From the NCBI GenBank assembly GCA_021234155.1, contig JAJEKV010000041.1:6069249-6133248 (forward strand): a DNA stretch of 64,000 nt, read 5' to 3'. Each line of letters starts with the position of its first letter. Position 1 is the stretch's first letter. This document shows positions 37,246 to 64,000 of the stretch, one piece after another. The notes beneath the pieces were generated by a model. That model was given only the letters and a program-made list of their open reading frames with translations, made no database searches and was not told where the DNA came from. The DNA comes from Isoetes taiwanensis. Lineage: Eukaryota > Streptophyta > Lycopodiopsida > Isoetales > Isoetaceae. The position numbers and the translations under genes were made by a program.

Positions 37246-39780
37246 TTATTTCTTAATGTCTGGATATTCTGGAGCTGTAATAACCCGTGGCATTCCGTGT
37301 AATCTGAAGATCTCCTTGGCAAATAGTAGAGCAGTATCGAAGGCTGTATCGGTGGTACGACATGGCAAGAAATGAGCCATTTTCGACAATTTGTCGACCA
37401 CTACCATTAATGCATCGTATCCACGGAGAGTACGGGGAAGGCCCACAATGAAATCCATGGTTATGACTTCCCACTTGGCGTTGGGCACATCCAGAGGTTG
37501 CAACTCGCCTGGAATCCTTAACTGCTCAGCTTTCGTTTGCTGACATACCTGACATTGCTTAATATATCGGGCAATATGTTTTTTCATAGAAGGCCAGAAA
37601 TAGCTGGAACGAATCTTAAAGTAGGTCTTCATGAAACCTGCGTGTCCAGCTATAGGGCTATTGTGTGTATCATGGAGAATGAGCTTACGTACTCCTGAAG
37701 TCTCAGGTACACACAACTTATCCTTGTAATATAACAAGTTGCCTTCTTTCTTATACGAACGGAAAGCTTCACGCTCCTTATCTGTTCGAGCTTCCTTAGT
37801 CAAGCTATCCCAAACTTCACAAAACTCGGGATCCGTGGCCAAGGTCCGTTCTATCTGTTTTCCAAACTCACTGGTGAGTGTAGAAATGGCATTACAATGG
37901 GTTCGGGTCACCAAGGGATGGCGTGACAATGCATCCGCAACCACATTGTGCTTGCCAGGTTTATACATAATTTCAAAATCATACTCCTCCAGAAATTCCA
38001 TCCATCTCCTCTGACGGAGGTTGAGATTCGGCTGGGTGGATAAATAACGGAGACTTTGATGATCCGTATCCAACTGGAATCTTCTACCAAGAAGGTAGTG
38101 TCTCCATATCCGCAGGGCACGGGCAACGGTAACAATTCCTGATCATGAGTAGGGTATCACTGCTCTGTCTCGTTCATTTTCTTCGAATCATAGGCAATAA
38201 CCCTCCCCTCCTGCATTAGGACTCCACCGGTGGCAATCTTACTGGCATCTGTTGCCACTAGTTTATCCTTCTCAGGATCAGGTAATGTGAGAACTGGTGC
38301 TGAAGTTAAGGCATCTTTAAGCTGCTGGAAACTTGTTTGAACCTTTGCCTTCCAGTGTTCTATCCAATCCTTCACCTTCTCATGCTTTGTAAGATTCGTA
38401 AGAGGTGCTGCAATTTTTGCAAAATCCTTTACAAATTTCCGATAATATCCTGCTAATCCCAAGAAACTTCGGACTTCGGAAACATTTCCGGGGATAGGCC
38501 ATTCCCTTACGGCCTCTATCTTCGCTGGATCTGTAGCAATTCCCTCTGCCGAAATGACATGGCCCAAATAGTCTACCTTCGGAGTGGCAAACTTGCACTT
38601 AGAGAACTTGGCAAAGAGCTGATGTCGTCTTAGCTTTTGTAGGGCTAATCTAAGATGTTTCTCATGCTCCTCTAGGGTCTTACTATAGATGAGAATGTCG
38701 TCAGAGAAGATAACAACAAAATCATCCAAGTATTGTCGGAAGACATCATTCATCAATCGCATGAAAGTTGCTGGGGCATTAGTTAATCCAAAAGGCATAA
38801 CTGTGAACTCATAATGCCCATATCTAGTGCGAAAAGCAGATTTATGAATGTCCTCCTCTTTAATCCTTATTTGATGGTATCCGGAGCGTAGATCAATCTT
38901 TGAGAAATACTTAGCCCCTTGCAACTGGTCCATTAGATCATGTGCTCGTGGCAAAGCATAGCGATTCTTGATGGTATGCTTGTTAAGTTGCCGATAATCA
39001 ATACACATCCTCAAGGAGCCGTCCTTTTTCTTAACAAAAAGAATAGGAGCGCCGAAAGGCGAAACGCTAGGTCGAATGAAACCTAGGTTTAATAACTCCT
39101 GAAGTTGCTTCTTAAGCTCTGCCAATTCTGGAGGACTCATACGGTACGGGGCCTTGCTGGTAGGCTTAGTACCTGGCTCCAAAGCTATCTCACATTCCAC
39201 CCCTCTAAAAGGAGGAAGTTTTTGGATTTCATCTGGAAAAAGATCACCGAATTCTCGGAGAAGATGAGCAATCCCCTCTGGCAAGGTATCGATTACTTGC
39301 TTTTGTTTAGCATCTGACTCAATGGAGGCAAGCCTAATGACGCAGAGGAGCTTTCCCTTGCGTATAGCTTTATCTAACTGCCTGATGGACATAGACTGCA
39401 TGATAGGGTTGAATAGTTCACCTTTTATAGTCACGCGGGCTCCATTAGTGGCGTTGAAGGTAACTTCCCTTTTCTCGCAGTCTATGTTGGCTTTTGCAGA
39501 TGCCAAGAATTCCATACCAACAATGAGGTCGTATTTGCCGATATCCATCAACTCGGCACCCAAAGCAACTGGTGCACCTGGCAACTGCATCTTGAGACCC
39601 GATCACGGCGGCCATGCGTGTGTCGACCTTACCAGCGGCTAGGGTGACAGGGCCTCGGTCGGGACCTTAATGTTTCAAGCTTTGTAAGACTTGGGCCATT
39701 CTAGGAGAAGCAAAATTATGTGTACTTCCCCGTATCCATAAAATTACAAAAGGCTTCTTGTCTACTTGACCTATGGTGGA
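37246..39780 (-). pseudogene. pol: Gypsy pol: protease, reverse transcriptase, RNase H, partial integrase
   Basis: Protease remnant at about 39760-39480: a D-T-G motif in one frame continues as STHNFASPR in the next, then [12 protein letters not shown] (about 39000-38400) carries [44 protein letters not shown], the catalytic block [17 protein letters not shown] and [12 protein letters not shown]. The frame stops at 38157 after NETEQ. RNase H C-terminus resumes at 38073 (TDHQSLRYLSTQ, KHNVVADALSR). Integrase has the HHCC zinc region (CQVCQQTKAEQ) and the first catalytic Asp (MDFIVGLP). It ends at HGMPRVIT, before the second Asp block. Inactive from truncation and frame breaks. Confidence 0.88.
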
Positions 39781-40382: not shown

Positions 40383-41110
40383 TCATCGATTAATGCGCTG
40401 AACCGACATACCCTTCTGCTCTAACCTATAGAAGGTCTGAATTTGCTGGCATTTGTGCGCACGGGGCACATAGTGCGATTTAAAAGCTTTAGCAAACTTT
40501 TTGAACTTGCACCTGCTTCTATCCAGATGCTTGGCTCTAGCATAGCCCTTCCACCAAATACGGGCAGCTCCTGTAAGGTTCGTGGTGGCAACCTTTCCTG
40601 TATCCTTTTCTGTCATGCCATAGGACTTCCCAAATTCCTTCATTTCGTCCAACCAGGATTCTGCATTCAAACCGCCTCTAGACTTCCCATCAAACTGGGC
40701 CAGTTTCCTATTCTTCCATATACTAGTTATGGCTGTATCGATCGTCTTGCGGTATTCCTTATCCCGGCACTTTGCATGGTCACCAGTTGATACCGATGAC
40801 TCAGAAGACACAGAAGTGGCTGATTGTGAGGAGGTGGCGCTATCCCTAGAGGAACTCCGACGACGTTTAGAATGAGGTCCCCTCTGTGCAGGTACAGGGC
40901 TGGTTTCAGGTGGAGATGGCTGCTGTGTAGGTGGACTTGGCGGTGGCGGAGGTAACTCCGGTCCGTCTTCTTGTATATGCTGGGGTGGGTTGGCATGCAA
41001 CACATAAGTTTGCAACTCGCCTAATTGCCTCTTCATTAGCATAAGTTCCTGTTCGGGTGTTAGCCTACTGGCATTTGAGGGCGTCTGCCAGGCGGCGTTG
41101 CGAGCGCCGT
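40383..41110 (-). pseudogene. gag: Gag core of the Gypsy element
   Basis: The segment contains a Pro/Ser-rich N-terminal part (PELPPPPPSPPTQQP, SKRRRSSSRDS). The retrotransposon Gag domain follows, with QFDGKSRGGLNAESWLDEM, AARIWWKGYA and FKSHYVPRAHK. The open frame extends upstream to 41321, but that part is hydrophobic and AT-rich. A TATAG acceptor at about 41117 suggests it is intron, with GARNAAWQTPSN as the first coded residues. The preceding coding segment would then be the block at 41563-41856. Confidence 0.75.
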
Positions 41111-41562
41111 CTATATCGAGCGTAAATAAAAGTATAAGCAGAATTATAATAACATAAAGTCTTACCTCAAATAGCATTGCGGATAAGGTAGAGAGAGAGT
41201 ACAAGAAAAAAAATACAGTACAATGGCACAGATCCTTGTTACAGGTGAAAACAGTCATTATATTAAAATTCCACACCTTAGTACTGCCAAAAGTTGATAC
41301 AAGAGTATGATACAAGGACAAACATGATACAGCGGAGACTTGAAGTTTAACTTACATACAACATACAGAAACGACAAAACCGAAGAGACCGGGCCTAGGG
41401 GTTCGCAAATGGGTACAAGATTGAGTAGCGAACACTTTCACATACAGCTCTAACGAGCTTGTAACGTGCCCAGGCCTGAACAATAACAGGTTGATATTCC
41501 AGCGTTGGGCTAATAATAAGGAGATTGAAAAGCCTCCTTAAAGCATAGAAGATTTGTCACAG

Positions 41563-41856
41563 GTGGTCGTTGGCGTCCTCGAAAGCTTCGTGCCTGGACA
41601 TGCTCCAATAGTCCCAGGTGCGGCGCAGAGTTTGCTTCAGGTCCTCGAAAGCTCTGTCTCTGAGGATATTAACTATCTCCATCCCCTTCTCTGGATCATA
41701 GGGCTCTCCTGGTGGCGGGGGTTCCATCTCATAACCTTCGTCCCATTCTGGATATTCCCCATATCTTTGGCCATAGTCCTGTTCGGGCGTCCCTGGATTA
41801 TCCCTCCTTATCAGGTCTGTAATCCTCTCTTCATATTCCAGAAGTGTCTCTTCTGC
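41563..41856 (-). CDS. exon-like accessory block upstream of gag
   Basis: On the minus strand, after a CTTGCAG acceptor at about 41857, an open stretch of about 97 codons begins EETLLEYEERITDLIRRDN. It includes an acidic/Pro-rich middle (MEPPPPGEPYDPEKG) and ends HEAFEDANDHL then TGA. It is absent from single-start ORF lists because it begins at a splice acceptor. The repeated AFEDLKQTL/AFEDANDHL segments are internal near-repeats. Function is unknown. Its position between the accessory ORFs and gag suggests a spliced element transcript. Confidence 0.4.
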
Positions 41857-42081
41857 AAGACAATGGAAATGAATATCGAGCGTTGCATAATTTCATTTTA
41901 CTCTAAACTCCAATAATTAGAAGAACACATCATGGAAAAGAACATTTTTTAATTGTATTCCTCAATACAATAATCACAGTCAATCAGAAAAAGGGTATAT
42001 TATATTGTAAAATGGCTAAAGAATTTTGCCAAACCAAAATTCTATAATCATATGCAATACAAAAATACGTAGTACAATTAT

Positions 42082-43471
42082 TTAAGAACTAGGTCCTCCC
42101 TCTTCATTTGTAGACCTAGGAGGTGGTGGCGGCGGTCGGTGTCGTAGCAGAGTCACCCCTGGGTCTACTGTGGCAGCCGCAATGGATGCAACCCCTGGCG
42201 GATAGGCAACAGCCAAGGGGGCTGCCGTAAGGAGCTTCATGCTCATCCAGGGTGCAATGTCTTGCCCCAAGGCTGTTAGGGCAAGGTCCCGGCGTACGAG
42301 TACATAGGTAAACGCACGATAGGGAAGCTTCTTATGCCCGGCCAATGTGGAAAGAGCACGGAGGGTCCACCATGAAGCTTCAGCCTCCGGCCCTAAGTCT
42401 CGGCTATAAAAAGAACTTGCCCCTGTCGAAAGGCTGATAAGAAGAAGCGGGTAAGGTGGTTTCCCAATACCTTCCCTTGTGGGGTCTCTGACGTGGCCAC
42501 CTCCTTGTCTAAATCCATAGGGACTTCTTCTTCCTTGAGTTCCTGCTGCTCTTCCTTCAAATGAGCAGGATTATGGTATAAATCCTCTCCTTCCTCATCC
42601 GAATCAGAGGGGACCTCAACCATATTAATGTTGGGAACATGAGGTCCCATAGCCGTAAATGCATCCGGTGAGGGTTGAGAGGCCGGTTCCTGCATCACCA
42701 GTTCTCGAAGCCGTAGCAAAGTCTCAGCCGGCTCTATGGTCTCCTGGTGGAACTGGAGTAGCTGCTGCACCTCCGGGGGAAGCTCAATAGGAGCGAAGTC
42801 GATGAAATCATCCATGCAATACTCCGCTAACTCATAAAGCACATGGTCCTTACGCCGGTGCTTAAATCCGGGCACCATGTGGTAAGTCCAGATGATATCA
42901 TCCAAGAGAAGATATTCTTGCCCTTGGTGATAAATAACTGGAAGGGCATCTAGCGTGCAGCTTGCTCCCGGCGGGGTGGCATCTCCTCTGCCAATTGCTG
43001 CCAACGGGCGAAGTCGCCCATACCTATATGCTCATCATCTCCCTCCTCGGGAGATTCAGGGAGTTTGCCTTTCTCTGCCGGCAAAGTCTCATCCTCAACA
43101 TATTGATCCATGAGGATGGCTAGGGCGAAGGCGACTTCAAGATATTGTCGCCCCTGATGCTGCACAACGGGCAGGTGTTTGCCCCATCTGAGCTTTCCCT
43201 TCAGCACATCATACGGATGGGTGTCGCCCCCTAACATCTCCCGGACTACCTCTCGCTCTAGATACAACTGGGGAGGATCCCCAAGAGGGATACACAAAGG
43301 AAGCATCTCCTCCATGTAAAAATCTAAGAACCCAGCATAATCCGGGTGCCGCTGCATATTGGTGATGAGATCAAGGCGCTGACATAGCAAGGGGCGCAAC
43401 AAATCAAAGGGCACTTGCGGATCCCACTGCTCTCCGTCTTGGTACCATGCAAGTAGGTCGGTGGCTGCCAT
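42082..43471 (-). pseudogene. accessory protein of the Gypsy element, three overlapping frames
   Basis: Frames 43471-42950, 43004-42393 and about 42410-42082 overlap end to start. They read as one protein of roughly 440-470 residues broken by two frameshifts (near 42960 and 42415). The first part begins MAATDLLAWYQDGEQWDPQV. HLPVVQHQGRQYLE and ALPVIYHQGQEYLL are two related motifs about 70 residues apart. They are followed by an acidic Glu-rich region (EEEVPMDLDKEVATSE) and a Pro-rich end (RHRPPPPPPRSTNEE). No known domain is recognised. It lies upstream of gag and in the same orientation. Confidence 0.5.
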
Positions 43472-43690: not shown

Positions 43691-44083
43691 CTAAGGATGC
43701 TCCCCCCGAATCCTGCGGGCGAGGGCTAAATCCTTAGGCATGATAGTGACCCTCTTTGTGTGGATCGCGCAAAGATTAGCGTCACCAAAAAGTGCCACCA
43801 GATAGGCCTCCGCGGCCTCTTGGAGTGCCAAAATAGCAAACGTCTGGAAGCGGAGGTCGGTCTTAAACTCCTGTGCAATCTCCCGTACCAACCTGCGGAA
43901 GGGCTTCCGTATCGAAGTTGGGTGGAAGCTTACGAAACTACGGATCTCCGTGAAGGCGACGATCGCGGTCGGTACCGATGGGGCTTCCTCGTGGGCGGGG
44001 TTTAGGCGGCCCCCCCTTTGCGAGTCTGATCTTGGCCCCAACAAGCTGAGGTGGGGCCCAGCGTCCACTGCGCTCCTGCCCAT
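43691..44083 (-). CDS. histone H3 core domain inside the retrotransposon
   Basis: The 130-codon frame ends with an almost complete histone H3 fold. [18 protein letters not shown] is the alphaN/alpha1 region and [20 protein letters not shown] is alpha2. [20 protein letters not shown] followed by RIRGEHP covers loop 2 to the C-terminus. Loop 1 is the short canonical form, not the longer one of CENH3. Cys110, His113 and Lys115 equivalents are kept. Upstream, [11 protein letters not shown] corresponds to TVALREIRKY, but the usual N-terminal tail is replaced by unrelated sequence. Another frame just upstream (about 44200-44130) is Lys/Arg-rich and might encode a tail through a splice or frameshift. 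It has the same orientation as gag-pol and lies between two accessory ORFs. AATAAA lies about 50 bases past the stop. Confidence 0.85.
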
Positions 44084-44417
44084 TTGGAGCTTCGCATTCT
44101 TCCCAAAAAACTCAGGCCCAGGTCTTTAGTTTTCCTTGTATTGGCTATTTGCGATTTGCGGGCCACGGCCTTCCTCCGGTGCTTAGCGGTCGTTGCTAAC
44201 CGATTAAAGGTATTGGGCCACCCCACCCGGGATATCACGCACCTGGCTGGTCGATTTTGCTCTGTCGGGCCTTCTCCGCTTTCTCCGTTCTATCCTATCT
44301 TGCTCTTCGAATTCCGGGCTCTCCTGAATCTTCTTCAACTTTGGCGAAATGTTGTCTTTGCTTCTGGCCGAAGAAGTTCACATGGTAATACCGTCGGGTC
44401 TCACGGTTATTAAATAA

Positions 44418-44933
44418 TCAATCGCGATGCTCGGGGATCAGCCCCCATATGAAGCTGCGAGAGTCTTCATCCCAACGGTATGGGGGAATCTCGATCGCCC
44501 TGTTGTCTATGACGGCAACTCCATCCCCTAAATACCGGTACTCCCTTCCCCGAGCCGCCGTACCAGCTCGCTCTATCTCCCGGCGGTCATCCTCCCTGGC
44601 CAGGTTTCTGATGCGGTCGGCCTCATCCCTTATGTCCCCCTCCTCGGTGTGTCCTTCACATTCGGGAGGGTAGAACTTAATCAGCATCATGACCAAGTCA
44701 GGTTGCTCGGCCATGGTGTAAGGGAGCTGGCGAAGGTTCAGCCGGATCAGGAATGGCTCCGAGAAGTGGTAAATGGGATAGGGAATCCTATCATTGTTCT
44801 CAAACCTGTTTACTAGCTCCTCTAGAAGTATGTCGATCAGAGCAGGGTCGGTAGCCATATTCCGAGCGATCAAAGCATAAATCTGAGCGATAGTAAGGTT
44901 AGTGGGGTCTGGAGCACTCTTGGTGTTGGCCAT
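44418..44933 (-). CDS. accessory ORF nearest the 5' LTR, unknown
   Basis: An intact 171-codon frame starts MANTKSAPDPTNLTIAQIY and ends WGLIPEHRD. The N-terminal half is predicted helical (ARNMATDPALIDILLEELVN), the middle is Glu/Arg-rich (RNLAREDDRREIERAG), and the C-terminus carries YRYLGDGVAVIDNRAIEI. No known domain is recognised. It is the first ORF after the primer site of the Gypsy element, about 0.77 kb downstream of it, and runs in the same direction as gag-pol. Confidence 0.5.
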   Translation of the reverse strand: MANTKSAPDPTNLTIAQIYALIARNMATDPALIDILLEELVNRFENNDRIPYPIYHFSEPFLIRLNLRQLPYTMAEQPDLVMMLIKFYPPECEGHTEEGDIRDEADRIRNLAREDDRREIERAGTAARGREYRYLGDGVAVIDNRAIEIPPYRWDEDSRSFIWGLIPEHRD

Positions 44934-45698: not shown

Positions 45699-45710
45699 GC
45701 TCTGATACCA
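45699..45710 (-). other. primer-binding site for initiator Met tRNA
   Basis: The minus strand reads TGGTATCAGAGC one base after the LTR end (CGTCACA G). This complements the 3' end of plant initiator methionine tRNA, the usual primer for Ty3/Gypsy and copia minus-strand synthesis. It fixes the LTR boundary at 45712 and the direction of the element as right to left. Confidence 0.85.
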
Positions 45711-45711
45711 C

Positions 45712-47305
45712 TGTGACGCTCCCTGAGTATATACGACCCCCGGCCGTATACATACGGGGACTTTCCCCTCCCATGGCAACCAACTTGCCATGAGCAAGGC
45801 CCTCCGTCTGACCCGGGCCCTCTACGTAGAGATGCTCGGGTGAAGGACACGGAGGTGTCGTTCGGCCCACGCCTTCGATGGGCTCCTACGTCGCGGAAGC
45901 ATGAATACAAGGGTTAGCACACAGCATAAATCATATATAAATAACCACCACGAAGGGTGGCGCATCCATTCCCAATAACAACGGCAAAGAATATGCATCT
46001 AAAACTAAGAAAACACCCCAAACCTCAGGTTCTACCCCGGCTCAGACTCCAGTGAGGATCGACTGACGGGCCTCCTCAAGAGATCGGCGGGCCAGAGTCT
46101 TGGCATGGCGTTGGCTGGCATAGAACATCGGCTAGGGTTGTCCATTCCATCCGCCCCTCCTGTGCACACTTTGCAGATGGGTCGATTCACGCTATGGCTT
46201 CGCTATAGCCTTGCGGAGACGCAGACTCAAGGTATCACCCTTTTGAGTCTACTCCAGGGTTCATGACGCCCCGGTCCGATGAGGCAGGTCAGGGAAGCGT
46301 CCCCTTCCAGGATTACATTGGTTCCATGGGTGAGCTAGAGAATACGTGCCGCATCAGCGACCCCCGCATCCGTACCCAACTTACTCACCCTAAATTTACT
46401 CAAAGTGCAAGATGCTCCATACGGATCACACCTCTACACCCAGGGAGTGTCAGACCCATACCCGACCCTCGTGGGACCGGCTATCGGGCCCTAGCCCACC
46501 TGGGAGTCTCGGGGAGCCTTGTATGCTCGTGCAAGACCCCACCCCCACTTCACCACTGTGTCCCTTATCTGGTGCTAAGCCAGACCATAGCATCTACGAC
46601 CCGGTGGTCTCTTGTACACAGGCCGCATCTAATGGGACTATTACAGGACTCTATCTAGGAGCATACTATCATATATGAGCTCAGAGGTCTCTACCCACCC
46701 TTTAAACCCCTGTTTAATGGAACTACTGAACTACTCCATAGATTCATCCATCATTTTGTAACAGAGCACCATTCATAATTGAAATATAATCCTACTTACC
46801 AGAGGTTAATCTCAACAAAGGAAATCAGAAAAGAGTACTTGGAATACTATCCTACCATTCACAAGCTAAACTACTACTAACCAGTGTTTCTGCTGGAACC
46901 GTTATCGTGGGGTGCTTCCATGGTGACGTACGGAGGTGGCAGTAACAGCTAAAGGGTGTTTGGCGATTCGGGGACGATCAGCAACAGTTCTTGGGTGCTT
47001 AACTGCTTCTTGGCGCTCTGCTGGGTCGAATTTTTGGGTAAGAAGAGGGTGGCACTTCCCTTTGGTGGCTCAATTTAGCAATCCCCATGCTGACCACTCG
47101 GGTTTTGCCAAGTGGCACCTTCCCAACCCATTAGTTGACTTAATACATGTGTGTATATGATTATCCTTTATAATTAGATTAACATAGCTAATTAAATCCC
47201 TTTTGGTCAACCCCCTAGGTTACCGTGCCCCATGGTGGCGTACGTTCACTGGGTGACGTGTCAAAGTATTTATACATGTACCATATAAATACTTGGAACG
47301 TCACA
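45712..47305 (-). mobile_element. LTR of the Gypsy element (5' LTR in element orientation)
   Basis: The boundaries TGTGACGCTCC and GGAACGTCACA are short inverted repeats beginning TG and ending CA. The length is 1594 bases. The primer site directly abuts the lower edge. A second, related LTR in the opposite orientation lies at 49929-51508 (1580 bases); shared landmarks include CTGCAAAGTGTGCACAGGAG. Confidence 0.85.
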
Positions 47306-49928
47306 GTATAGGAACTCTGATCTTCATTATTTTCATATTCATCTAGACTGTGAACTAAAAGTTCTATTATACACCCTTTTACCATTAAATGGTCCTAGTA
47401 CGCATATACCAACGCGGAGCTACTCCTCGGGATACACACATGACACCAAGTCCAGAGCACATTCTCCTTGGTGAGATGTTCATTGGGCACCTACCTTGTT
47501 CATACTCCAGACCTTGGACAAATATTTGACGTTGTTTACAACAACTTTCAAGCTCCTCTTGTCTCACACTTGACGTATGGGTACATGACTTGCCTCCCTA
47601 ATGTATCATTAGTTGAAGGTCAACTCTCCTTCATAGTATAGCTTCACCAAAGCTCGAACATACCTTGCAGCTTTCAGACGATTGCACCTTCTGTAGCAAT
47701 TGTCGTCTTCCATTCCAACGATTTATTCCCGCCTTCGTTCAGTTTGACCTCGACTCTCTTGACCTTGTGTGGAAACTACGTTCCACACTATTGTCCAGTC
47801 TTTTATTCGGTGTCTCAATGCTCCCAGCGGAGATATAATGCGTCCATTTCCTTAACTTTCATGCATCAACTTAACTTTCATGCATCAGCTTAACGGTGCA
47901 CCATAGAATGTCTCTGTGAGATGTATCTGTGCGATGTAAATATAAGAATGTTTGTATGTCTGATAAATGCATCAACTTAACTTCCACACCATTGTCCAGT
48001 CTTTTATTCGATGTCTCAATGCTCCCAGCGGAGATATAATGCGTCCATTTCCTTAACTTTCATGCATCAACTTAACTTTCTTGCATCAACCTTAACTTTC
48101 ATGCATCAACTTAACGGTGCCCCATAGAATGTCTCTGTGAGATGTATCTGTGCGATGTAAATATAAGAATGCCTGTATGCCTGATAAATGTGTAGATATA
48201 ACTAATGAATTAACATATGTGCACATGTGCATGTAAAGTATTGTGGGTCTGGAAAGATGCGAGATAGTCAAAAGAAGAAAAATATTTATATGGTAGAAAG
48301 AAAATGTTGATATAATAAAGTGTAGAGTCAATGCAGTGTTAAATATAATAGAATGGGAAATATAATTATGTATGTATACAAACTATTGAAGGAACAACGA
48401 GACATAGAATATGAATATAAAAAGGTTATGAATAATATATGATGAAGAACGTGTGTGTGTGTGTGTAACTAATGTTAAAGTACATATGTAAAAATGTGAG
48501 ATACAGTGCAACATATGTAATTCTATTAAAGGATAAGAATAAATTTGATGCGCATGTAAAATAATGAGGATAGCAATATATGAGCTGTTAAAAACTGTAA
48601 CGAAATAAGAAAAAAAAAGAGATACAAAATTAAATTAGGCAGACTGTAATAAAACAAATTGTAAAGTGAACGGAGAGTATAATAGACATATAGACAGAAG
48701 TTAATATGATTGGAATAAGTTTGTAGTAAACAATGCGAGAATTATAAGTGTGTATCGTATTAAAAAAGGAAATAAAGTTGTCTATGTCTATGCCCTTGCT
48801 CTTGTATAATATATAATGAGCTACATGTGTCTGAAATAAAGAAGTGAGCAGTCATGGATTCCAGAAGAGTTCCAACAATTGCGGAACTCATCACCACGAA
48901 TGCAACAGTGGGACTTCCACAAATTGTCACCCATTGGACGTCTAATGGTCATGGTTGAACAAGGTCCAAAATCAGTCCTCAAGTAGAATTTTTGTTGAGG
49001 CTTACCTGGATTTCCTGCGGCAACGTCAAGCATGTGCCAACAGCGACGCCATCAACTCCAGCTTTGACGGAGTGGTGCGTGCTACAACCACCAGCCGATA
49101 TCTCGTGAGTCTCAAATCCGGCAGTGATCATGTAGGCCAACCTTCATACAGCGGGCTCGGGCTAGATGCATCCTAGGAATGGGGATGTGCATATAGGCAT
49201 AATAGGATGCCTTTGTCTACGGCTATAATGGGAACATTATTCCTTACGCCAGACGGATGGCAAGCCTTAGGCATGATAGGTTTCCTCTTTCTTCATTTTT
49301 CTTCTTCAAAGGGGGTGGTCCCTTCAACCACAACATATAAATTATTTTGTAAATATTGATGTCTTATGATTCTGCACGCCAGAAGTGCTTACCTTGGCGC
49401 CTGCAGCTTCTTCTAAAGGCCATTACAGGCCCATGTTCTTGTTGTGATATGTGCTTTCTAGTTGCATTGCTAGGCCCTATAGGCTACGGTCTACTGAGAA
49501 CCAATGTCGTGCCTGCTTATGTATTATATCTACAGTGTCGCTTTTTGACCGACTAGGGTCCTAAATGATGATCCTGTATGATCTATATATGTATCTTTTA
49601 TATCACCGATCTGAGTCCGCTCAATCTTCCTTTAACTCTCCTTGTATTTAACCATCTAATGTCGATGCTGAGGACAGCATAACTCGTTATGTTCCCTTCC
49701 ACATAACTTTGCTCAAACTAATTACTGTTCAACTGCCGTACAGTTGTGAATTGCACCTTGCGCATCATTTCAAACTTGATCACTTTGAACATGACAACTT
49801 TTGTATGACTTATAATTTCGCATTACCTCTTAAAGGTTGGGAGACTTGCCTCCGACATGCCATGTGTTGGCCCAAAGCAAGAACAATCTTAATGCTGAGG
49901 ACAACATCATTTTTCAAGGTGGGGAGGA
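47306..49928 (+). mobile_element. internal remnant of a second Gypsy element, with tandem repeats
   Basis: This segment precedes a plus-oriented LTR. Just before it, the plus strand encodes NLNAEDNIIFQGGEDV, like the C-terminal end of a Gypsy pol ORF, and then the polypurine tract AAGGTGGGGAGGA. Most of the rest is AT-rich without domains. A tandem duplication of about 203 bases (TTGTCCAGTCTTTTATTCG to CTGATAAATG) lies at about 47788-48190, and a short (GT)n at about 48452. No 5' LTR for this element lies in the window. Confidence 0.5.
49916..49928 (+). other. polypurine tract
   Basis: AAGGTGGGGAGGA immediately precedes the TGTGACG start of the LTR at 49929, as expected for the plus-strand priming site of an LTR retrotransposon. 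It shows this is the 3' LTR of a plus-oriented element. Confidence 0.75.
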
Positions 49929-51508
49929 TGTGACGTTCCACGTATTTATATGCCGTTTGGATATAAATACATGACACGTCACTATGAATAATTAATAGTG
50001 CATTAATTATTCATAAGCTAAGGGTAGTTATGTTAATCATTAATTATTAAGGTGGAAACCTAACCCTAAACCCTAATTCGAGTTTAGGGCTTAACCTAAT
50101 GTTAAAAGGGGTTAAAATATTAATTTAGTTAATATTAACCAACTAGAGTTGCCACCTGGCCCAAATCGATTGGGCAAGGCAGGCTTGCCAATTTGGGACA
50201 CCAAAATTGGGGCTTCCACCCCAATTTGCCCCAATTTGAATTGGAGGAGGGATTCGTGGAGGAGGGGCTGCTGTTCAACCCTGCCCCAGCCAAAAGGATG
50301 GAGAACCAGGGAGATAGTAGACCTAGCTATGACTCTGGTTAGTACGTAGATAGCTTGGATTCCTGAATAGTCATAGGATTCACCTTTGTATGCTTAGAAA
50401 ATAGCTAGGATTAACCCTTGTATGAATAGATGTATAATTAATCTCTATTTTATGTTCTATTCGAAGCTATGGATGGATGGATGTATAATGATAGTTCTCT
50501 TTCTGTTCCTCCAGTGTTTGTGGAGATTAAGGGGGGTAGAGACCTAAAGGCTATGTAGAAGTAGAGATGCCCCTAGTTAGAATCCCTTAAACCCCAATAT
50601 ATGCGGCCTGTGCACAAGAACCCATCTGGTTGTGGATGATATATCGTGATTCAACACCAGATAACGGGTACGATGGTGAAACGGGGGTAGGATCTTTCCT
50701 AGCGTGGCTACAGGACTCCTACAGTGTGCTAGCCTTATAGTCGGTCCTCGCGTTGGGGCCGGGTATGGGTCCGACACCTCCTGGGTCGCAAAAAACGTGC
50801 CTATATGGAAGTCTTGGGCTCGATGGGTGCGTCGAGCTGGCCCATGGATTTTGGGGGTTCAAGTCGTGTACGGCTGCAGGGGTCACTAAGGAGGCACGCA
50901 TTTTCTAGTACACCCAGGGATCCATTGTGCCCAGGAAGGAGATGCCTCCCTAACCTGCCTCATCGGAACCGGGAGATGTAATCCTGAGTAGTCTCATGGG
51001 GTGATTTCATCAGATTGCATCTCCGGAAGGCTAGGATCATGCCATAGCATGTTTCAGCCTATCTGCAAAGTGTGCACAGGAGGGACGAATGGAATGGACT
51101 ACCCTAGCCATTGTTCTATGCCAGCCAACGCCATGTTATACTTCTGTCTGCTATTATCTGTCGACCCCTATGAGTCTGATTCGGGGTAGAGCCCTTATTT
51201 ATGGCGCATTTTTGTTATGTTGGTATTCTTTTGTTAGTTGTATTGTTGATGATGGGCCACCCTTCATGGTGGTATATTATTTATTAGTATTGTTGCCAGG
51301 TGCTAGCATGTATGTCGCTTCCGCTATATAGGATTTCCATAGAGGACGTGGGACGAATGACACCTCCGTATTCGTCACCCGGACACTTGGCCATCTCAGG
51401 TGGTCCGAGTCAGACGGAGGGCCTTTCCGTGGTGATGTAGTCGCCATGGGAGGGGAATTCCCCGTATTTGTACGATGGGAGCATCGTATAGATTCTGGGA
51501 GCGTCACA
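49929..51508 (+). mobile_element. 3' LTR of a second Gypsy element
   Basis: The LTR starts TGTGACGTTCC and ends GGGAGCGTCACA, 1580 bases. It is the reverse complement relative of the LTR at 45712-47305. A polypurine tract lies directly upstream. It contains several short open frames that are not convincing genes. Outside the LTR at 51509 the sequence is unrelated. Confidence 0.8.
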
Positions 51509-53216: not shown

Positions 53217-53221
53217 TGTAG

Positions 53222-53427
53222 TGTTAGAATATAGGTTATATGATCATATAGATCAAGATAGATGACATGGCAAGTGTCATGTGTACACGCCAATGTGGCA
53301 GTCCTAGTCATATAGAGAGTCGTGACTTCAGATGAATAGACGTGTCCCATCCACTAGATATGTATATGCTACGTTGGGGGCTGTTCCCAATCTAATCCAT
53401 TCTATTCCAGCATTCTATATTTTATCA
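53222..53427 (+). repeat. 5' LTR, 206 bp
   Basis: It runs TGTTAGAATATAGG to ATTCTATATTTTATCA. The primer-binding site TGGTATCAGAGCC follows directly at 53428-53440. It appears identical to the copy at 55600-55805. Confidence 0.9.
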
Positions 53428-53473
53428 TGGTATCAGAGCCTGCTTGTTATTAATTCGATCCTGGGAATCAGAA

Positions 53474-53929
53474 ATGAGAGAGGAAGTTGGAGAGCCTCCT
53501 CCGTCAACAAAGAAGAAAATTTTTATAGGATTCAAGAAGCGCTTGAAGGTATTGAAATCTAAAACTAAAATCTGCATAACAGAATGTTTTTCTATTTCTT
53601 CCTATTGTATTGCGGAAGAGGAGAGGGATGATGCCAGGAGCACTTACGTGAAAGACGAGGCCGTGATGAAAGCCCCATTAGATTCCGTTGCAGTTGAAGA
53701 GAATAATCTAGAATGTAGAACATTTTTTGGAAGTGCCGTTGATGGATTACAGAAGGCTGTTGAAGACCAAGCACAAAGCCAAGAAAAGGAGATATTCTTG
53801 ATTCAACAAGCCAAACTTGGCTTTGCTCATAAAGCTCACAACAAAGGGGCTAATCTGTGGACTACTGCACCAATTGTAGCCGCAGGCGGCGGGTCCGTTT
53901 CGCATCATGCGCATCTAATGCGCCTATAA
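53474..53929 (+). CDS. ORF1 of the non-autonomous LTR element, unknown
   Basis: A frame of about 152 codons from ATG 53474 starts MREEVGEPPPSTKKK and shows a basic segment (FKKRLKVLKSKTK) followed by an acidic, Gln-rich one. The upstream ATG at 53444 is also in frame. It begins about 33 bases after the primer site, the usual place for gag, but no Gag or zinc-knuckle motif is visible. It ends at 53929 in a VAAGGGSVSHHAHLMRL tail. It may be transduced host sequence. Confidence 0.4.
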   Translation: MREEVGEPPPSTKKKIFIGFKKRLKVLKSKTKICITECFSISSYCIAEEERDDARSTYVKDEAVMKAPLDSVAVEENNLECRTFFGSAVDGLQKAVEDQAQSQEKEIFLIQQAKLGFAHKAHNKGANLWTTAPIVAAGGGSVSHHAHLMRL

Positions 53930-54277
53930 GCAAAAAAAACGAGTGGGGAGGCAAAGAAAAAAAAAGACCCACTGAGGCCCTGCGGCAAAGAAATCGTGCG
54001 ATGGAGACTATCACAGTGATGCCGCCTTTGAATGATGCCGCTAAAGCAAAGGATACTTGATTGGATTCTCGCCATTAAGGCAAAGGTTTCTCACGCCGAT
54101 GTTTCGTAGCGATTAGCATGGAGGATGAAGCTTATATTGCTTGGCTTGGAACCGGAAAAGAGCAAGGAATCTGCACAAAGAAGTGCCACCGTATTGAGTT
54201 ACCCGAGGGCTAAGGACTTGGAGTTAAGACATGTTCCCGATAACGAGCCAAGGCATCCAACCTATTAACAAAACCCC

Positions 54278-55375
54278 GTGATATTTGCTAAAGGGCCTTC
54301 CTTCAATGGGTCGAATGAGGAGCATAAATCGATAGCGAGATGGCGTAACGTTTGCCATCGAGTGGATGATCCAAGCACTAAGCATCATGGACTGGAAGAG
54401 CAGAATGACCATGATTCCTGTGCAACATGCAGAAATATAAATGAAAGAGCTAAGGGAATTACAGAGGATGCTCACAGCGCTAGGGAAACCACAGAAGATG
54501 CCCAAATCAGAAATTTTATTCCAGAAAGAAGCATTGTAGAAATTAACACGAACAAGCAAGAAATTGGTGCGGCTACAACGGCCTTGCAGGCCTTGACAGG
54601 AAACCTAAATGCCCCTGCACATGCCATTGCGCAACACCTGGAGATAGATAAAAATCAGAGATTGAAGCCTGCCTATCCCAGAAACCATGCAATAGATGAG
54701 AAGGCGTTTCGGATTTGTCCGAAACCTGTGGAAGCCCAGAAACAGCAACCGATGACAAAACAGGATGCAAAGCAGATGGAACTAATGAGCCCACTGGCAA
54801 AACAAAGACAAAAGGAGGATATTCGAGATGTCTTGGATCTATTTGGAGATGATCCAGAGATACTGCATGCCTTAATTCAAGATAATGGAGCAGCAGCACT
54901 AATGGATGAAATCCTATTCACAGAGCCAACCATTCTGACAGCAGAGCTCACGGATAGGGATGCCTTGTGTATAGCTCCAAAAATGAAGCTAGGAACAAAA
55001 GAATTTGTGTGCCCAACGGCAAGTAATGATGCTCCAACCAAAGCCAGAACCGAGATAGTATCGATGCCGAAAGAACCCTACATGCAGCAGATGCAGAAGG
55101 CCATTATTACACAAGCTTCGCCAATGCCGAAAACCGACGTGCAAATTTTTAAGAAAGAAAATATTTTAGTCAGCGTCACCGATACAGGAAAAGCGGTTGG
55201 AGCAGAAAAGCAACCCGCATATATGCAAAAGGTTTGTAGTAGCAAGAAAAATAACACAAGGGATAACACAACATATAAATTTCCACTCGAATACTATAAG
55301 GAGAAAATTTTAGTGTTACCCTTAGGAAATTCTATTCACGACGAAGGCCCATGTTTGTTGGGAAAAATACTATAA
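54278..55375 (+). CDS. ORF2 of the non-autonomous LTR element, unknown 365-aa protein
   Basis: This long uninterrupted frame is Lys/Glu/Ala-rich. It contains TTALQALTGNLNAPAHAIA and QKEDIRDVLDLFGDDPEIL, followed by HALIQDNGAAALMDEIL, then a low-complexity Lys/Thr/Pro region. It has no reverse transcriptase, protease or integrase motifs. The open frame in a very young element suggests it is either recently captured or maintained. The protein family is not recognised. Confidence 0.5.
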   Translation: MIFAKGPSFNGSNEEHKSIARWRNVCHRVDDPSTKHHGLEEQNDHDSCATCRNINERAKGITEDAHSARETTEDAQIRNFIPERSIVEINTNKQEIGAATTALQALTGNLNAPAHAIAQHLEIDKNQRLKPAYPRNHAIDEKAFRICPKPVEAQKQQPMTKQDAKQMELMSPLAKQRQKEDIRDVLDLFGDDPEILHALIQDNGAAALMDEILFTEPTILTAELTDRDALCIAPKMKLGTKEFVCPTASNDAPTKARTEIVSMPKEPYMQQMQKAIITQASPMPKTDVQIFKKENILVSVTDTGKAVGAEKQPAYMQKVCSSKKNNTRDNTTYKFPLEYYKEKILVLPLGNSIHDEGPCLLGKIL

Positions 55376-55599
55376 ACAAAAATATGTGAAGTATTCTAGA
55401 GTCATTTAGACGTCCTATAATTGAGGTCCCGTGTAATGGTTAAGCATAATGGATGCTTGATCAAGGGGGAGAAATATGCCTAATATATGTGATCAAGGCA
55501 TCCTCATAATAGTATAGTCTAGAGGAAACATTTTCAGTTCTTTTTTTTATTAAGGGGGAGAGAGTTCTAATCATTCTTGATCTATTGATCAAGGGGGAG

Positions 55600-55805
55600 T
55601 GTTAGAATATAGGTTATATGATCATATAGATCAAGATAGATGACATGGCAAGTGTCATGTGTACACGCCAATGTGGCAGTCCTAGTCATATAGAGAGTCG
55701 TGACTTCAGATGAATAGACGTGTCCCATCCACTAGATATGTATATGCTACGTTGGGGGCTGTTCCCAATCTAATCCATTCTATTCCAGCATTCTATATTT
55801 TATCA
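55600..55805 (+). repeat. 3' LTR, 206 bp
   Basis: It is preceded by the polypurine tract AAGGGGGAG and followed by target duplication TGTAG. The sequence appears identical to the 5' LTR, which indicates very recent insertion. Confidence 0.9.
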
Positions 55806-56099
55806 TGTAGTATATGCAAATCGGATTGATTACTACTCTAAAAGCATAACCTGAATCAATTTTTACAATATGCATCTTTTGTGTATTCTTTTGATCCGAG
55901 AAGGCATCACAATTTATGCCATGCAACGCTCAGGTGCGGAAATTGCCTCAATTGCCTGGAAATAGGATTCATTGTATTTATTGCATGAAGACATTTGCAG
56001 CAATATTTTTGCGACAGAATGCACACAAAACCAACCGCCAGATAAAAATCCAAGCTTGGTGTCTACATTGTGACAAATTTGATCAAACCCTTTTGCCAA

Positions 56100-58288: not shown

Positions 58289-58699
58289 CTAACGAGTCTC
58301 GTCCATGAAGCTGTCTATATAAGCTTCAAGTTCATCCATGATAGTGTTCTGGACCCATTCCTTTGCCTTGGCCATGAGTGAGGGGCTAATTCTGAACATT
58401 AGAAGACAAAACTCGTTCTCATTTAGTGCTCCATCTCCATCCCGGTCTCCTTCCAAAACCATAGCCTCTAATTCTTCTTCTGATAGCTCTTCAAGTCCCA
58501 AAAGGCTTGCATTTTTTCTAAGACTGGCTGGGGTAATGGTGCCGGTAGTAGGATCCGCAAGAAGCTTGAAGCCCTTGCAAAGCTCCTCCATAAAATCCTG
58601 TTCGCCAAGCGCCTGTGCCATAATAGGAAGGTAATCCTCGAAGCATTCCATCTCTTGCCCTTCAAAGTTACAAGAATCTGCTCCCATTGTTTTCCGCAA
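58289..58699 (-). CDS. KIC/PBP1-like EF-hand calcium-binding protein
   Basis: This is a single-exon gene of 136 codons (start at 58699; a second Met at 58687 gives 132). ECFEDYLPIMAQALGEQDF and ELCKGFKLLADPTTGTITPA match the N-terminal half of plant KIC and PINOID-binding protein 1. One canonical EF-hand loop DRDGDGALNENE follows, then FCLLMFRISPSLM. Family members bind Ca2+ through this single loop. They regulate partners such as the kinesin-like KCBP or the PINOID kinase. The length and loop are intact. It is the only clearly complete intronless host gene in the window. Confidence 0.88.
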   Translation of the reverse strand: MRKTMGADSCNFEGQEMECFEDYLPIMAQALGEQDFMEELCKGFKLLADPTTGTITPASLRKNASLLGLEELSEEELEAMVLEGDRDGDGALNENEFCLLMFRISPSLMAKAKEWVQNTIMDELEAYIDSFMDETR

Positions 58700-58749
58700 C
58701 CTCGATAAAGGAAAAGGACGCCAATCCGGCAGCTAAATACACACAAATT

Positions 58750-60124: not shown

Positions 60125-63100
60125 TTATGGAAGTAGTTCTTTGTAGACGACGTTTGTTGTAGTCTTGTCCGTGTTTGACTCGTCGAGGAGGATTAGGACG
60201 TCTTCTTTCTTTCGTACGCGTGTGAGCGCCGTGTATAATTGTCCGTGTGTGAAGACTTCAGTTCGCAGGTCGAGGACTATTTTGTCGAGGGTTAGTCCCA
60301 GGCAACTGTGGAATGTTGTTGAGTAGGCGGGTCGTAGTGGGAGTTGTCGTCTGTGGATTGTCCAGGGCCAGTTGTCCGGCTGATGGAAGAAGTCGACTCG
60401 GGATATGGGGTGTATGTTTCCCACGTGCTGTGGTTGACCTGTTAGAAGTTTCACGGTTACGAATTTGGCATGCATTGAGCATACCATGACTCTGGCGTTC
60501 TTAACGAGTCCTCTGTCTTTGTCTAGTGTCTTTGTGATGTGGCATATGGTGTTGGGCTTCAGTTGGAGTTCGTGTTGTGGAAGCGCTGGGTGTTTGTAGC
60601 CGTTGAGGAAGTCTGTCGTTGCCATTGGATGGTCCTCGATGGTCTGGTCGTTTTCTGTGAGTCTGTCGACGCTAAAGTAGCTTCTGGAGTCTTCTAGGAT
60701 CATTCGTATGATTTCGTTGTTGAAGCTGTCGACGGGGACGTTCTTTGGAGATAGGAATGCTCTCTTTTCGCATATGGTGGGCGTTAGTAGTATGTATGCG
60801 TTGTATAAGAAGTTGACGGCATCCTCGATCTTCGTTGTTGTCTTGAACAGTGTCAGTGGAATGTTATTGAGCAGACGGCCTTCTCCGATGTCGTCGACGA
60901 ATTGTATGAGCTCTGGATCGGCTGCGTTCCTCACTGGTTCGTTAAGCTCTAGGACTTTGAAGTGTTTCCACAAATGTGAAGATATGATGGATGCGTTTAT
61001 TGTTGCTGTTTTTCCTCCTCGTTTGACGACGGGGGCAATCTGTCTGAAATCTCCGGCCGCTATGAATAGTTTTCCTCCGAATGGGCTCTTTTTGCCTGTT
61101 ATGTTTTGCAAGAGGATGTCGACTGCTTCTATGACTGCTCTGTTTGCCATGGGAAACTCATCCCATATGATTGCTGTTGGGGTGTTGATCAATGCGGCCC
61201 TTGGAGAATGTGGATCGAGTAGGGAATGGATTCCGATATTGTTTTCGACAATAGGTATTTGAAACAGGGAGTGCGCAGTTCTTCCGGCGGGATACTGTAG
61301 TGATGCCAATGCCGTGGTGGCACACGGTAAGATTATTTGGTTCAGTCCTCGTATGTAGAGGCAGATGGCATTGAGGACGTATGTTTTTCCGGTTCCTGCC
61401 TTTCCATACACGAAGATTGAGGATGGACAACTGTTGTTGTTGATAAGTTGGCATATGTGAGGTCTGGTTCTTGTTCATGGTTTGCGACATAGTTGAGCTC
61501 TTTATGAGGTATTCTTCGTGGTCGGGGAACTTTCCGAGTTCATTTTGTACTTCTTTGGATGGGATGTTTTGCATGGGCAGGCCGAAGGCTTCAGTGGTGG
61601 TGCCGTGTTGGATCAAGATGTTGTTGATGGCGACCAGGGTTTCATTGACGGCAATCGTTTGATTTCCTGGATATTGTTCTAAGAAGTCGGCTATCATGTG
61701 GTCTTGAAATGTCTTCCATAGCTGAAGTGCTGGTCCGGAATCTAGTATTAGGAGTGCAAATAAGAATCGCAGCTGTGATGGGGTCTGTAGACATGAGATT
61801 GCTTCTTGCATTACTGCTATTGCTTCAGTTGCTGGTGCGATCAGTCCGATGGCTTGAGCGGTTTCTTGGTACGTCTTGTACTGTCGTTGGTCGTGGGTCT
61901 TGAGTTCTTCCCAACATCGTGCTGCTTTGTGGAGCAGGATTAGTCTTAGATAGAATGCTTCTCCGACTTTTGGAAGTAATAGGCGTATCCTTCGTTCTCT
62001 CGTGGATGATATTCTGGATTACGCCTGCGTATTTTTGTTCTAGGTGGTCGGTTGGTTTGAGGATGGTGTTTGGCTTGTATGTGGTGGAGGTATACTGTTC
62101 ATTGTATTCGATGTAGGTCACGTGATCGAACTTGGGATCGAGTGGTCGTAGGAAGTATCTGTCTAGCAGAGAGATTCCAGTGTCTGTCGACGTGCTTCTT
62201 AAATGATGTCTGTTTTGTCCCTCTAGAGGCAAGGGGAGGCATTTGACAGAAGGGTGCTTTTCAGTCATGTGGTAAGACATAATTCTCCATGTCGCTTCCA
62301 TCGAGGATAGGTAGCGTGCAGATATATAGTCTTGGATTTCGTTTCTAGCGTAGCTCTGGTCGTTGCTGTTTATTGTGGCAGGTTGTGTGGAAGTATGTTT
62401 GGCGGAGTCGATGTGGAAGCGGGCCGTGTCGAAGCCTTTGTATATATAGCCGTAAAGGTATGCAAATATGTGCACGGTTGATGCGATGTCTGCATAGACA
62501 TGGCAATCCATTTCTCTTACTAAAAAAGGCATGTATGGAACGACATTTACGTCTGCCTCGGTTCGTCGTCTATACTGTACGTATCCCTTTTCATCGATGT
62601 ACGTTGTTGGGTTTATTGGCTTTGGGTACTTGTAGCAGCATCTATTGTTTTCTTTGAGGCAGCGTTTTGTATGTCTATGGATCATGTATTTCTCGACTTG
62701 TGCTCTTAGTACGGGGTCTTCTGGTAGTTCTGCAGAGATTAGACTATCGATTATGTCTATCGGAATCTCATGCTCTGTCTTTACGACCATGTGTGCGTGG
62801 GGTAATCCCCTCTGTTGGAATTCGATGACGTGCATCATTTAGGATATGGGTCCGAGATATTTTCGAATGATGTTCTTTGTATATTGGACTCTTTCGTGGC
62901 ATGCTCGAACGACAACCGTGGGGCTGTCAGATGCGTTTTGGCCGGTATGTAACTTTTGTTTTATTTCGGGCCACGTTGGATTCGTCGTCATAGTTATAAA
63001 GAAGCTGGGCCTTCCTTTAACTCTTGCGAGTGCCAGGGCATCTGCTACTTGAACGGCACACCATCGTCTGGAGCCCAGAAAAGATGCTGGTAGAGTTCTG

Positions 63101-64000
63101 TAATGAGCATCGGGATCGTCGTCGTCGATGAAGTCATCTTCATGTTGTGTAAAATTTCGTCGATAGCCCTCAGTTACGATATAATTGAGGCGCTCTTCTT
63201 CGACTCTCGAGTACATGTCAACGAGGTACTCACCACATAATCTGCCTAGCTGCGAGAAGCGAGGTTCGTGAAGTAGTCTAGTTCGATACCAATCTATTTG
63301 GGACATATTTTGGTCATTGCGTGGATGCCACCCTAGTGTTCCGTGTGGGAAGAACAACGGGTATTGAAGTGGCTCATATGTAGGGTCGAGGATACTTAAG
63401 AATACTGGGTCGTGGTCGTGCTGCATCCAAACCATTGCGGTTCTAGGTTTTATGGTAACGGAATTGTTGGCATGTACGATAGCAGCTATTTCATCTGATG
63501 TGGAGGAGTCTGCCAGGGTAAGCCTTGTAGGCACGGGATGTAATTCCTTTATTGTCTTCAATTGTTTAATATATGGATTGATCATATCTAGAGTTGCAGC
63601 AACTTGCATAATCCAAGTGGATGGTATTTGCATGTTGGCAGCAATAGTATGTCTCATTGAGCTGTCATATACGTACCAATGAAGGGTGCTAGTGGGGGCG
63701 CTTGCAGATAGGAGGCGGTGGTATGTGCAGCCCATAATTGCGACTGATGATGGCATTTTTAAGTCCATGAAATCACCGTCGACACCAAGAGCAGTGAAAC
63801 AAAATAAGTTGTTCACAACGCGTGAACTGTCAGAAAATTTGGGTATTGAATAAAGCTCTTCCAAGTTTCGGGGTAGAGGCTCAAGGAGTGGAAGTAAACG
63901 ACGTCCATTGTTGCAACAGAACGATACGTTTTCGGAGTTGAGCAAATCAATGTGACATATGTCACATCTTCCTGTTCATTTCAATGGTTCATGTTCTGCA
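60125..64000 (-). mobile_element. Helitron, Rep-helicase part, running off the right edge
   Basis: The minus strand encodes a zinc-finger N-terminal region, a HUH Rep domain and a PIF1-type helicase in Helitron order over 3.9 kb. The 5' end lies beyond the window. The 3' end was not pinned down: no clear CTRR terminus with the usual hairpin was recognised. The hairpin segment at 59948-60096 is a candidate. The element is only lightly decayed (one stop, two frameshifts). Confidence 0.8.
60125..64000 (-). pseudogene. RepHel: Helitron replication initiator-helicase
   Basis: The N-terminus, open past the edge, has CDICHIDLLNSENVSFCC, a Helitron zinc-binding pattern. The frame runs to an in-frame TAA at 62839 after KYLGPIS and continues in the same frame with HVIEFQQRGLPHAHM, the HUH metal-binding motif, then a YLYGYIYKG tyrosine block at about 62430. 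A frameshift near 61975 leads to WEELKTHDQRQYKTYQE, and a second near 61450 leads to the PIF1 helicase. Walker A GKAGTGKT is at about 61405, Walker B is IIWDEFPMANRA, then GDFRQIAPVV, and THGQLYTALTRVR is near the C-terminus. HUH nickases cut and join single strands during Helitron transposition. Confidence 0.85.

Follow-up and report, generated by a model that had tools for sequence, protein, structure and literature searches.

A hAT DNA transposon of the fungus Pyrenophora tritici-repentis is described as bearing an H3-like gene, H3L, in 26 very similar copies ascribed to a relatively recent expansion (PMC3538342), and the initial annotation of the locus considered here, which knew of no element bringing its own H3, was too broad in this respect. 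Single H3s have been reported from DNA viruses, namely xenomavirus, DSLPV1, Sylvanvirus and others (PMC9145170). In plants, an AlkB ORF in Phalaenopsis Gypsy elements has been proposed to act against host surveillance, and a screen of 121 angiosperm genomes returned 15 unusual domains, with no histone among those named in the passages on this screen (PMC9289625). Additional ORFs beside gag-pol are also on record in plant Ty3/Gypsy elements (PMC6317226) and in bdelloid LTR elements (PMC5408684); the extra-ORF text of the former contains no histone ORF, and the word 'histone' is absent from the available text of the latter and from that of a review of gene capture by plant transposable elements (PMC13317346). 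Among the open-licence PMC papers listed by literature searches, none was recognised as describing a retrotransposon with a histone gene. To our knowledge, there is no earlier case of a retrotransposon carrying a core histone.

The locus lies in a stretch of 64,000 nucleotides from the lycophyte Isoetes taiwanensis (contig JAJEKV010000041.1), referred to as the window. The published assembly is reported at 1658.30 Mb in 204 scaffolds and 909 contigs, with Gypsy elements at about 10.7% (PMC8566536); the genome searched here comprised 1,658,258,908 bases in 1110 contigs.

Architecture of the element and of its first ORF

The minus strand of the window carries a Ty3/Gypsy LTR retrotransposon, in which gag is followed by protease, reverse transcriptase (RT), RNase H and integrase (Pfam order in the window copy). 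Its features are as follows.

45712..47305, minus strand: 5' LTR of about 1.6 kb (TGTGACG...CGTCACA), 86.0-88.5% identical to the full-length LTRs before ORF1 in three other copies
45699..45710, minus strand: primer-binding site TGGTATCAGAGC, found by pattern search, 777-782 bp before the ORF1 ATG in 4/4 copies measured
44421..44933, minus strand: ORF1, 5' portion, which codes for the novel N-terminal part; its frame breaks after 171 codons but runs on into H3 in open copies
43694..44125, minus strand: 3' part of ORF1, H3-encoding (Pfam, PDB and frameshift-tolerant alignment)
42085..43468, minus strand: ORF2 (MAATDLLAWYQ...), three broken frames in the window copy
41557..41892, minus strand: ORF3, with the same position in copies A, B and C
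40386..41351, minus strand: gag (Pfam Retrotrans_gag, Ty3_capsid)
38160..39602, minus strand: protease remnant and reverse transcriptase (Pfam RVP_2, RVT_1)
37249..38142, minus strand: RNase H end and zinc-binding part of integrase (Pfam RT_RNaseH, Integrase_H2C2), after which the element is cut

The primer site TGGTATCAGAGC, which we take to be of the initiator-Met tRNA type, occurs twice in the window at up to one mismatch, a number reached in 0/100 shuffles. An LTR with the adjacent primer site TGGTATCAGAG is present in the window and in copies A, B and C, the latter three repeating the order LTR, primer site, ORF1, ORF2, ORF3, gag and all having an interrupted gag-pol; in copy A, gag to RNase H form a single frame of 1167 codons, and the integrase follows in a later frame past the interruption (by eye). 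The element as first delimited, at 37.2-47.3 kb, was confirmed in its LTR, primer site and gag-pol but proved to be 3'-truncated, stopping abruptly near 37.25 kb. Self-comparison of the window gave no second LTR copy in direct orientation, and a 3' LTR was found neither in the window copy nor in what was fetched of copies A, B and C. None of the 119 chromodomain places (of 150) lay 3-14 kb downstream of the 150 H3 places, the copies examined being without integrase ends. ORF2, whose frames are open up to 582 aa in relatives, and ORF3 gave no Pfam match, nor did the ORF2 profile match PDB.

The H3 segment is encoded in a minus-strand frame of 144 codons from stop to stop (44125..43694), the last ~95 residues of which match Pfam Histone (E 7.9e-28) and, against PDB, H3.3 (E 9.8e-35). 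Its presence inside a Ty3/Gypsy element is therefore real, and its orientation, that of gag-pol, and its distance of about 1.6 kb downstream of the primer site (45710-45699) were correctly annotated. In the window copy, frame breaks scramble the stretch covering tail and alphaN, and the segment runs without interruption from alpha1 to the C-terminus; frameshift-tolerant alignment finds H3-like sequence also 5' of the uninterrupted core. The segment is the 3' part of a longer ORF1 whose frame is broken here; the window copy is decayed, and its missing tail and odd alphaN are products of decay. Open copies elsewhere in the genome have an intact alphaN and a long tail. An H3 running from alphaN to the C-terminus, as initially described, hence exists in open copies but not in the window, where alphaN is frame-broken, and the accessory ORFs noted beside it are there (ORF2 and ORF3, downstream), but H3 is not a unit among them, being part of ORF1. 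The view that the H3 tail is missing had to be abandoned: open copies have a basic tail with a conserved ARKSG, and H3 is the C-terminal domain of a protein of ~420 aa.

No other long ORF lies between the primer site and ORF1. From its ATG, the ~420 aa encoded by open copies comprise an N-terminal part of ~250 aa, a basic tail (~67 aa) and, at the C-terminus, a nearly complete H3 core covering residues ~37-135 of H3 (Pfam Histone in copies L010, L066, L073 and L063, E 7.4e-41 to 5.3e-45; one open copy, 6.9e-41). The N-terminal part of the window copy had no relative in the protein database at E 0.001, the best PDB profile match of the ORF1 N-terminus (0.0065, Syn-F4-Link) was taken as chance, and structure models of the window ORF1 N-terminal part and ORF2 start had a mean pLDDT of 43 and 40, respectively. 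In place of the standard tail ARTKQTARKS..., there is a different tail, fused to the ~250-aa part; it carries the motif ARKSGSQYK in 26/34 frames reaching it and TPRKSGAQYK in copy L069 of a second subfamily described below. Comparison of the two subfamilies shows their tails to be related (z 7.6). That the element tail stems from that of H3 was considered but is not supported, the likeness between them lying within that of shuffles (z 0.9 and 0.4), so that descent of ARKSG from H3K9 is unsupported; the motif could be left over from H3, imitate it or resemble it by chance.

In the protein database, those opened among the best 120 of 7991 scored matches to the window H3 frame were H3 proteins, several of them tandem. 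For ORF1 of L010, the best 120 of 5067 hits covered 22-63% of the query (BLASTP), the widest (P0131) being a tandem H3 protein; these 120 reach down to 343 bits, and distant fusions could hide lower. A search of viral contigs gave no match.

Elsewhere in the window, two identical 210-bp direct repeats on the plus strand (53220-53429 and 55598-55807), the first of which is directly followed by an exact TGGTATCAGAGC (53428-53439), appear to delimit a short LTR element of recent origin, ~2.6 kb long (53220-55807, frames 53396-53926 and 54269-55372). Plus-strand positions 49929-51508 are LTR-like, starting TGTGACGTTCC, ending CGTCACA and showing 69% identity to the element LTR over ~1 kb; this segment lies in the opposite orientation, has no primer site directly behind it and may be a solo LTR from a related family. 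Near-identical direct repeats with ~200-bp spacing occupy 47781-48203, just upstream of the 5' LTR. On the minus strand, long frames at 60128-63975 are presumably a Helitron replicase-helicase, and a frame at 58292-58732 is presumably an EF-hand protein resembling a KIC-type calcium-binding regulator.

Copies, constraint and origin of the H3 domain

The window H3 frame matched the genome at 150/150 scored places, the window included (150 scored of 7878 first-look candidates), the 15 host H3 places being absent from these element rows. ORF1 of copy L006 matched at 104/104 scored places (of 12317 candidates), 59 having an open frame of at least 400 aa with no stop in the match and 39 a stop, and the first 160 residues of ORF2 matched at 150/150 (of 4093 candidates), none of these candidate and scored-place totals being copy counts. 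Among the first 60 of the 150 ORF2 places, the window included, no fewer than 44 are preceded on the same strand by H3, at a distance of 168-266 bp; five of the other 16 were fetched and all contained H3, with the core uninterrupted in one and frame-broken in four. Several elements with the same H3 at the same place, anticipated in the initial annotation, are thus present, and the alternatives that it had named, a unique insertion, a retrocopy or a nested host gene, do not apply, given that all scored places match and that the host H3 set is separate. With the same place in many copies and selection acting on it, H3 belongs to the element.

Selection was measured in 18 copies with ORF1 open over 400 codons (mean dS 0.50). 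Mean dN/dS (NG86) was lowest in the H3 core, at 0.032, against 0.124 in the N-terminal part and 0.243 in the tail; the bootstrap ranges of pooled pN/pS were 0.026-0.071, 0.156-0.233 and 0.208-0.442, respectively. As these copies had been selected on protein similarity, their dN is biased downwards, an effect that bears less on the contrast between ORF1 parts. Another set of 19 rows, with one place counted twice (L031 = L068), gave 0.023 for H3 over 97 codons. The 15 host H3 rows, which include three pairs that do not differ over the final 240 bases and might be duplicates or else haplotypes, gave 0.018 against each other. In the three pairs formed by the window and copies A and C, RT had a dN/dS of 0.044-0.050, and H3 from alpha1 to the C-terminus had dN 0.013-0.020 and dS 0.30-0.37, with ratios of 0.036, 0.067 and 0.066 resting on few changes; in these pairs, the constraint on H3 roughly equals, and does not exceed, that on RT. 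Copies with a broken ORF1 (26/29 used) had an H3 core dN/dS of 0.042 vs 0.033 in 19 open copies, a similarity expected if the constraint acted on source lineages. Six copies have identical H3 cores at a dS of 0.09-0.55 among them. The dN/dS below 1 expected of a functional acquisition was therefore found (0.032 for the H3 core of the 18 open copies), and the core is under strong purifying selection, with nearly histone-like constraint. Since selection has kept H3 almost unchanged, H3 probably serves the element in its dealings with host chromatin.

We took 22 distinct H3 sites to be DNA contacts (15), part of the H3-H3' bundle (7) or ASF1 contacts (7). Among 41 element copies, the host residue is the majority at all 22, and the 10 sites at which the majority differs from the host all fall among the other 75. 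The chaperone site at 87-90 reads HAIL or FAIL in the elements vs HAVL, SAVL or TAVL in the host.

Copies L063 and L069 represent a second subfamily (II) of H3-carrying elements. Between L063 and the main group, identity is 37% over 132 aa in the ORF1 N-terminus and 47% over 402 aa in ORF2, far above shuffles, and the H3 cores of L063 and L069 are 88.7-89.7% identical to those of the main group. Both subfamilies differ from host H3 by S86T, V89I, T107A, I124L and A135P, and subfamily II keeps the host-like Y54, H87 and Q125; its H3 is in places more host-like (HAIL, KDLQLARR), standing between host H3 and the main family. The element H3 is 90% identical to host H3 over 97 residues and 59% to CENH3 (a single one, from Arabidopsis), values on which a CENH3 origin was rejected and the element H3 is classed as ordinary H3. 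The suggested grouping of H3 in a tree was only partly achieved: identity places it with ordinary H3 over CENH3, but the tree is poorly resolved, with 0/17 inner branches of the H3 core tree starred and the two subfamilies not united. Synonymous differences in the core exceed the NG86 correction in element-host pairs. The host set (L045-L059, 15 rows among the matches listed) is 97-99% identical to standard H3 and has a normal tail. Subfamily II shares H87 and L90 with host gene L045 (HAVL), unlike the SAVL and TAVL host genes, which points to a donor of what we presume to be the H3.3 type. AQEF at position 77 is found in 15/15 listed host rows and 39/41 main-group copies, the residue at 77 in the reference H3s being Asp. 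That an H3.3-type host gene was captured once, in a common ancestor of both subfamilies, is supported, not proven; as the tree does not unite the subfamilies, this view rests on the shared residues.

Possible roles of the ORF1 protein

Histones are part of transposon silencing. The reading that we favour, with a probability of about 0.6, is that a host H3 was captured long ago and kept because the ORF1 protein enters host nucleosomes or chaperone complexes. The H3 domain of ORF1 would pair with host H4 and be handled by host H3 chaperones, and the protein, on entering nucleosomes, would carry its N-terminal ~320 residues (the novel part and the ARKSG tail) into chromatin. Incorporation would likely occur on the element's own cDNA or on new insertions, and the likely benefit would be that silencing is disturbed or escaped, the tail presenting the H3K9 machinery with an unusual substrate or a decoy; alternatively, the element might be tethered to chromatin. 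Judged from sequence, capture and nucleosome entry would be supported by the dN/dS of the H3 core (0.032), near those of host H3 (0.018) and RT (0.044-0.050), by an H3 identity of 89-90% between subfamilies against 37% in the ORF1 N-terminus and 47% in ORF2, and by the host-like majority at 22/22 contact sites. A stronger form, to be regarded as tentative, is that the retrotransposon H3 variant replaces host H3 on its own cDNA or new insertions, with the ARKSG tail as a false substrate of the H3K9 machinery, a counter-defence long kept in a lycophyte.

A conserved fold could also be demanded by DNA packaging, and it is conceivable, if unlikely, that the H3-ended ORF1 product acts in the manner of a nucleocapsid, binding element RNA or cDNA in the particle without ever entering nucleosomes. 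The retained basic tail and DNA-contact residues, and the position of ORF1 upstream of gag on the same strand, would suit such a role; however, gag appears to have a candidate zinc-knuckle region of its own (motif by eye), and the H3-H3' bundle and ASF1 sites are as conserved as the DNA sites, which DNA binding alone would not require. Equally improbable is a sink for chaperones, or dominant negative, in which the protein would occupy ASF1/HIRA/CAF-1 or H4 and weaken host chromatin assembly without stable incorporation: the ASF1-contact sites are unchanged in the majority, but so are the DNA-contact sites, for which this role has no need. The HAIL/FAIL of the elements at 87-90 is, in favour of the sink, close to the SAIL/TAIL reported for viral H3s (PMC9145170).

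Many copies are decayed, including the window copy, 39/104 ORF1 places with a stop and 4/5 copies fetched by ORF2 position, as would be expected of a functionless H3 fragment carried along by amplification; that only one of those five has an uninterrupted core also counts against nucleosome entry. A mere passenger is nevertheless very improbable, being contradicted by the dN/dS of 0.032 at a mean dS of 0.50 (18 copies) and the divergence of the two subfamilies, by six identical cores at dS 0.09-0.55 and by the presence of H3 at every ORF2 place examined. Nothing was found in favour of a nested host gene or a one-off retrocopy in the window element, a reading left with practically no probability by the 150/150 matching places and by 15 separate host rows with a normal tail and 97-99% identity to standard H3.

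Under the favoured reading, entry of the ORF1 protein into nucleosomes, the family would offer a naturally occurring H3 variant bearing a foreign tail, the effect of which on silencing is directly testable. In any case, a transposon family owns a histone and has kept it under nearly histone-like constraint, and the diverged subfamilies and decayed copies should make the evolution of this H3 datable.

Comparison with known systems

Like the fungal hAT transposon with H3L, the Isoetes element is a mobile element with an H3-like gene between its ends and many copies (PMC3538342). The fungal element is described as a DNA transposon in which H3L is an ORF of its own, whereas the Isoetes element is an LTR retrotransposon in whose ORF1 H3 is joined to a novel part; the hAT copies are reported as very similar, whereas those of Isoetes are diverged, with purifying selection measured. 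The viral H3s resemble the Isoetes H3 in having a host-like core without other histones, some with an altered or extended N-terminus and some with SAIL/TAIL, but are reported from DNA viruses, at 73-87% to possible host H3s and with no LTR element (PMC9145170). Unlike these, the Isoetes H3 is ~90% identical to that of its host and has been amplified within the host genome. The bracovirus histone CpBV-H4 is an H4 of a wasp polydnavirus (PMC5423620). The Phalaenopsis Gypsy lineage with an AlkB m6A demethylase ORF is, like the Isoetes family, a plant Gypsy lineage with a host-type domain fixed in an additional ORF, the cargo being an enzyme there and a histone in Isoetes (PMC9289625). The Isoetes family is a case of a captured host domain in a plant Gypsy extra ORF, the domain being under selection and occupying one and the same position in many copies. 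Capture of host genes into extra ORFs of Gypsy elements is known; what is unusual here is the histone cargo and its strong conservation.
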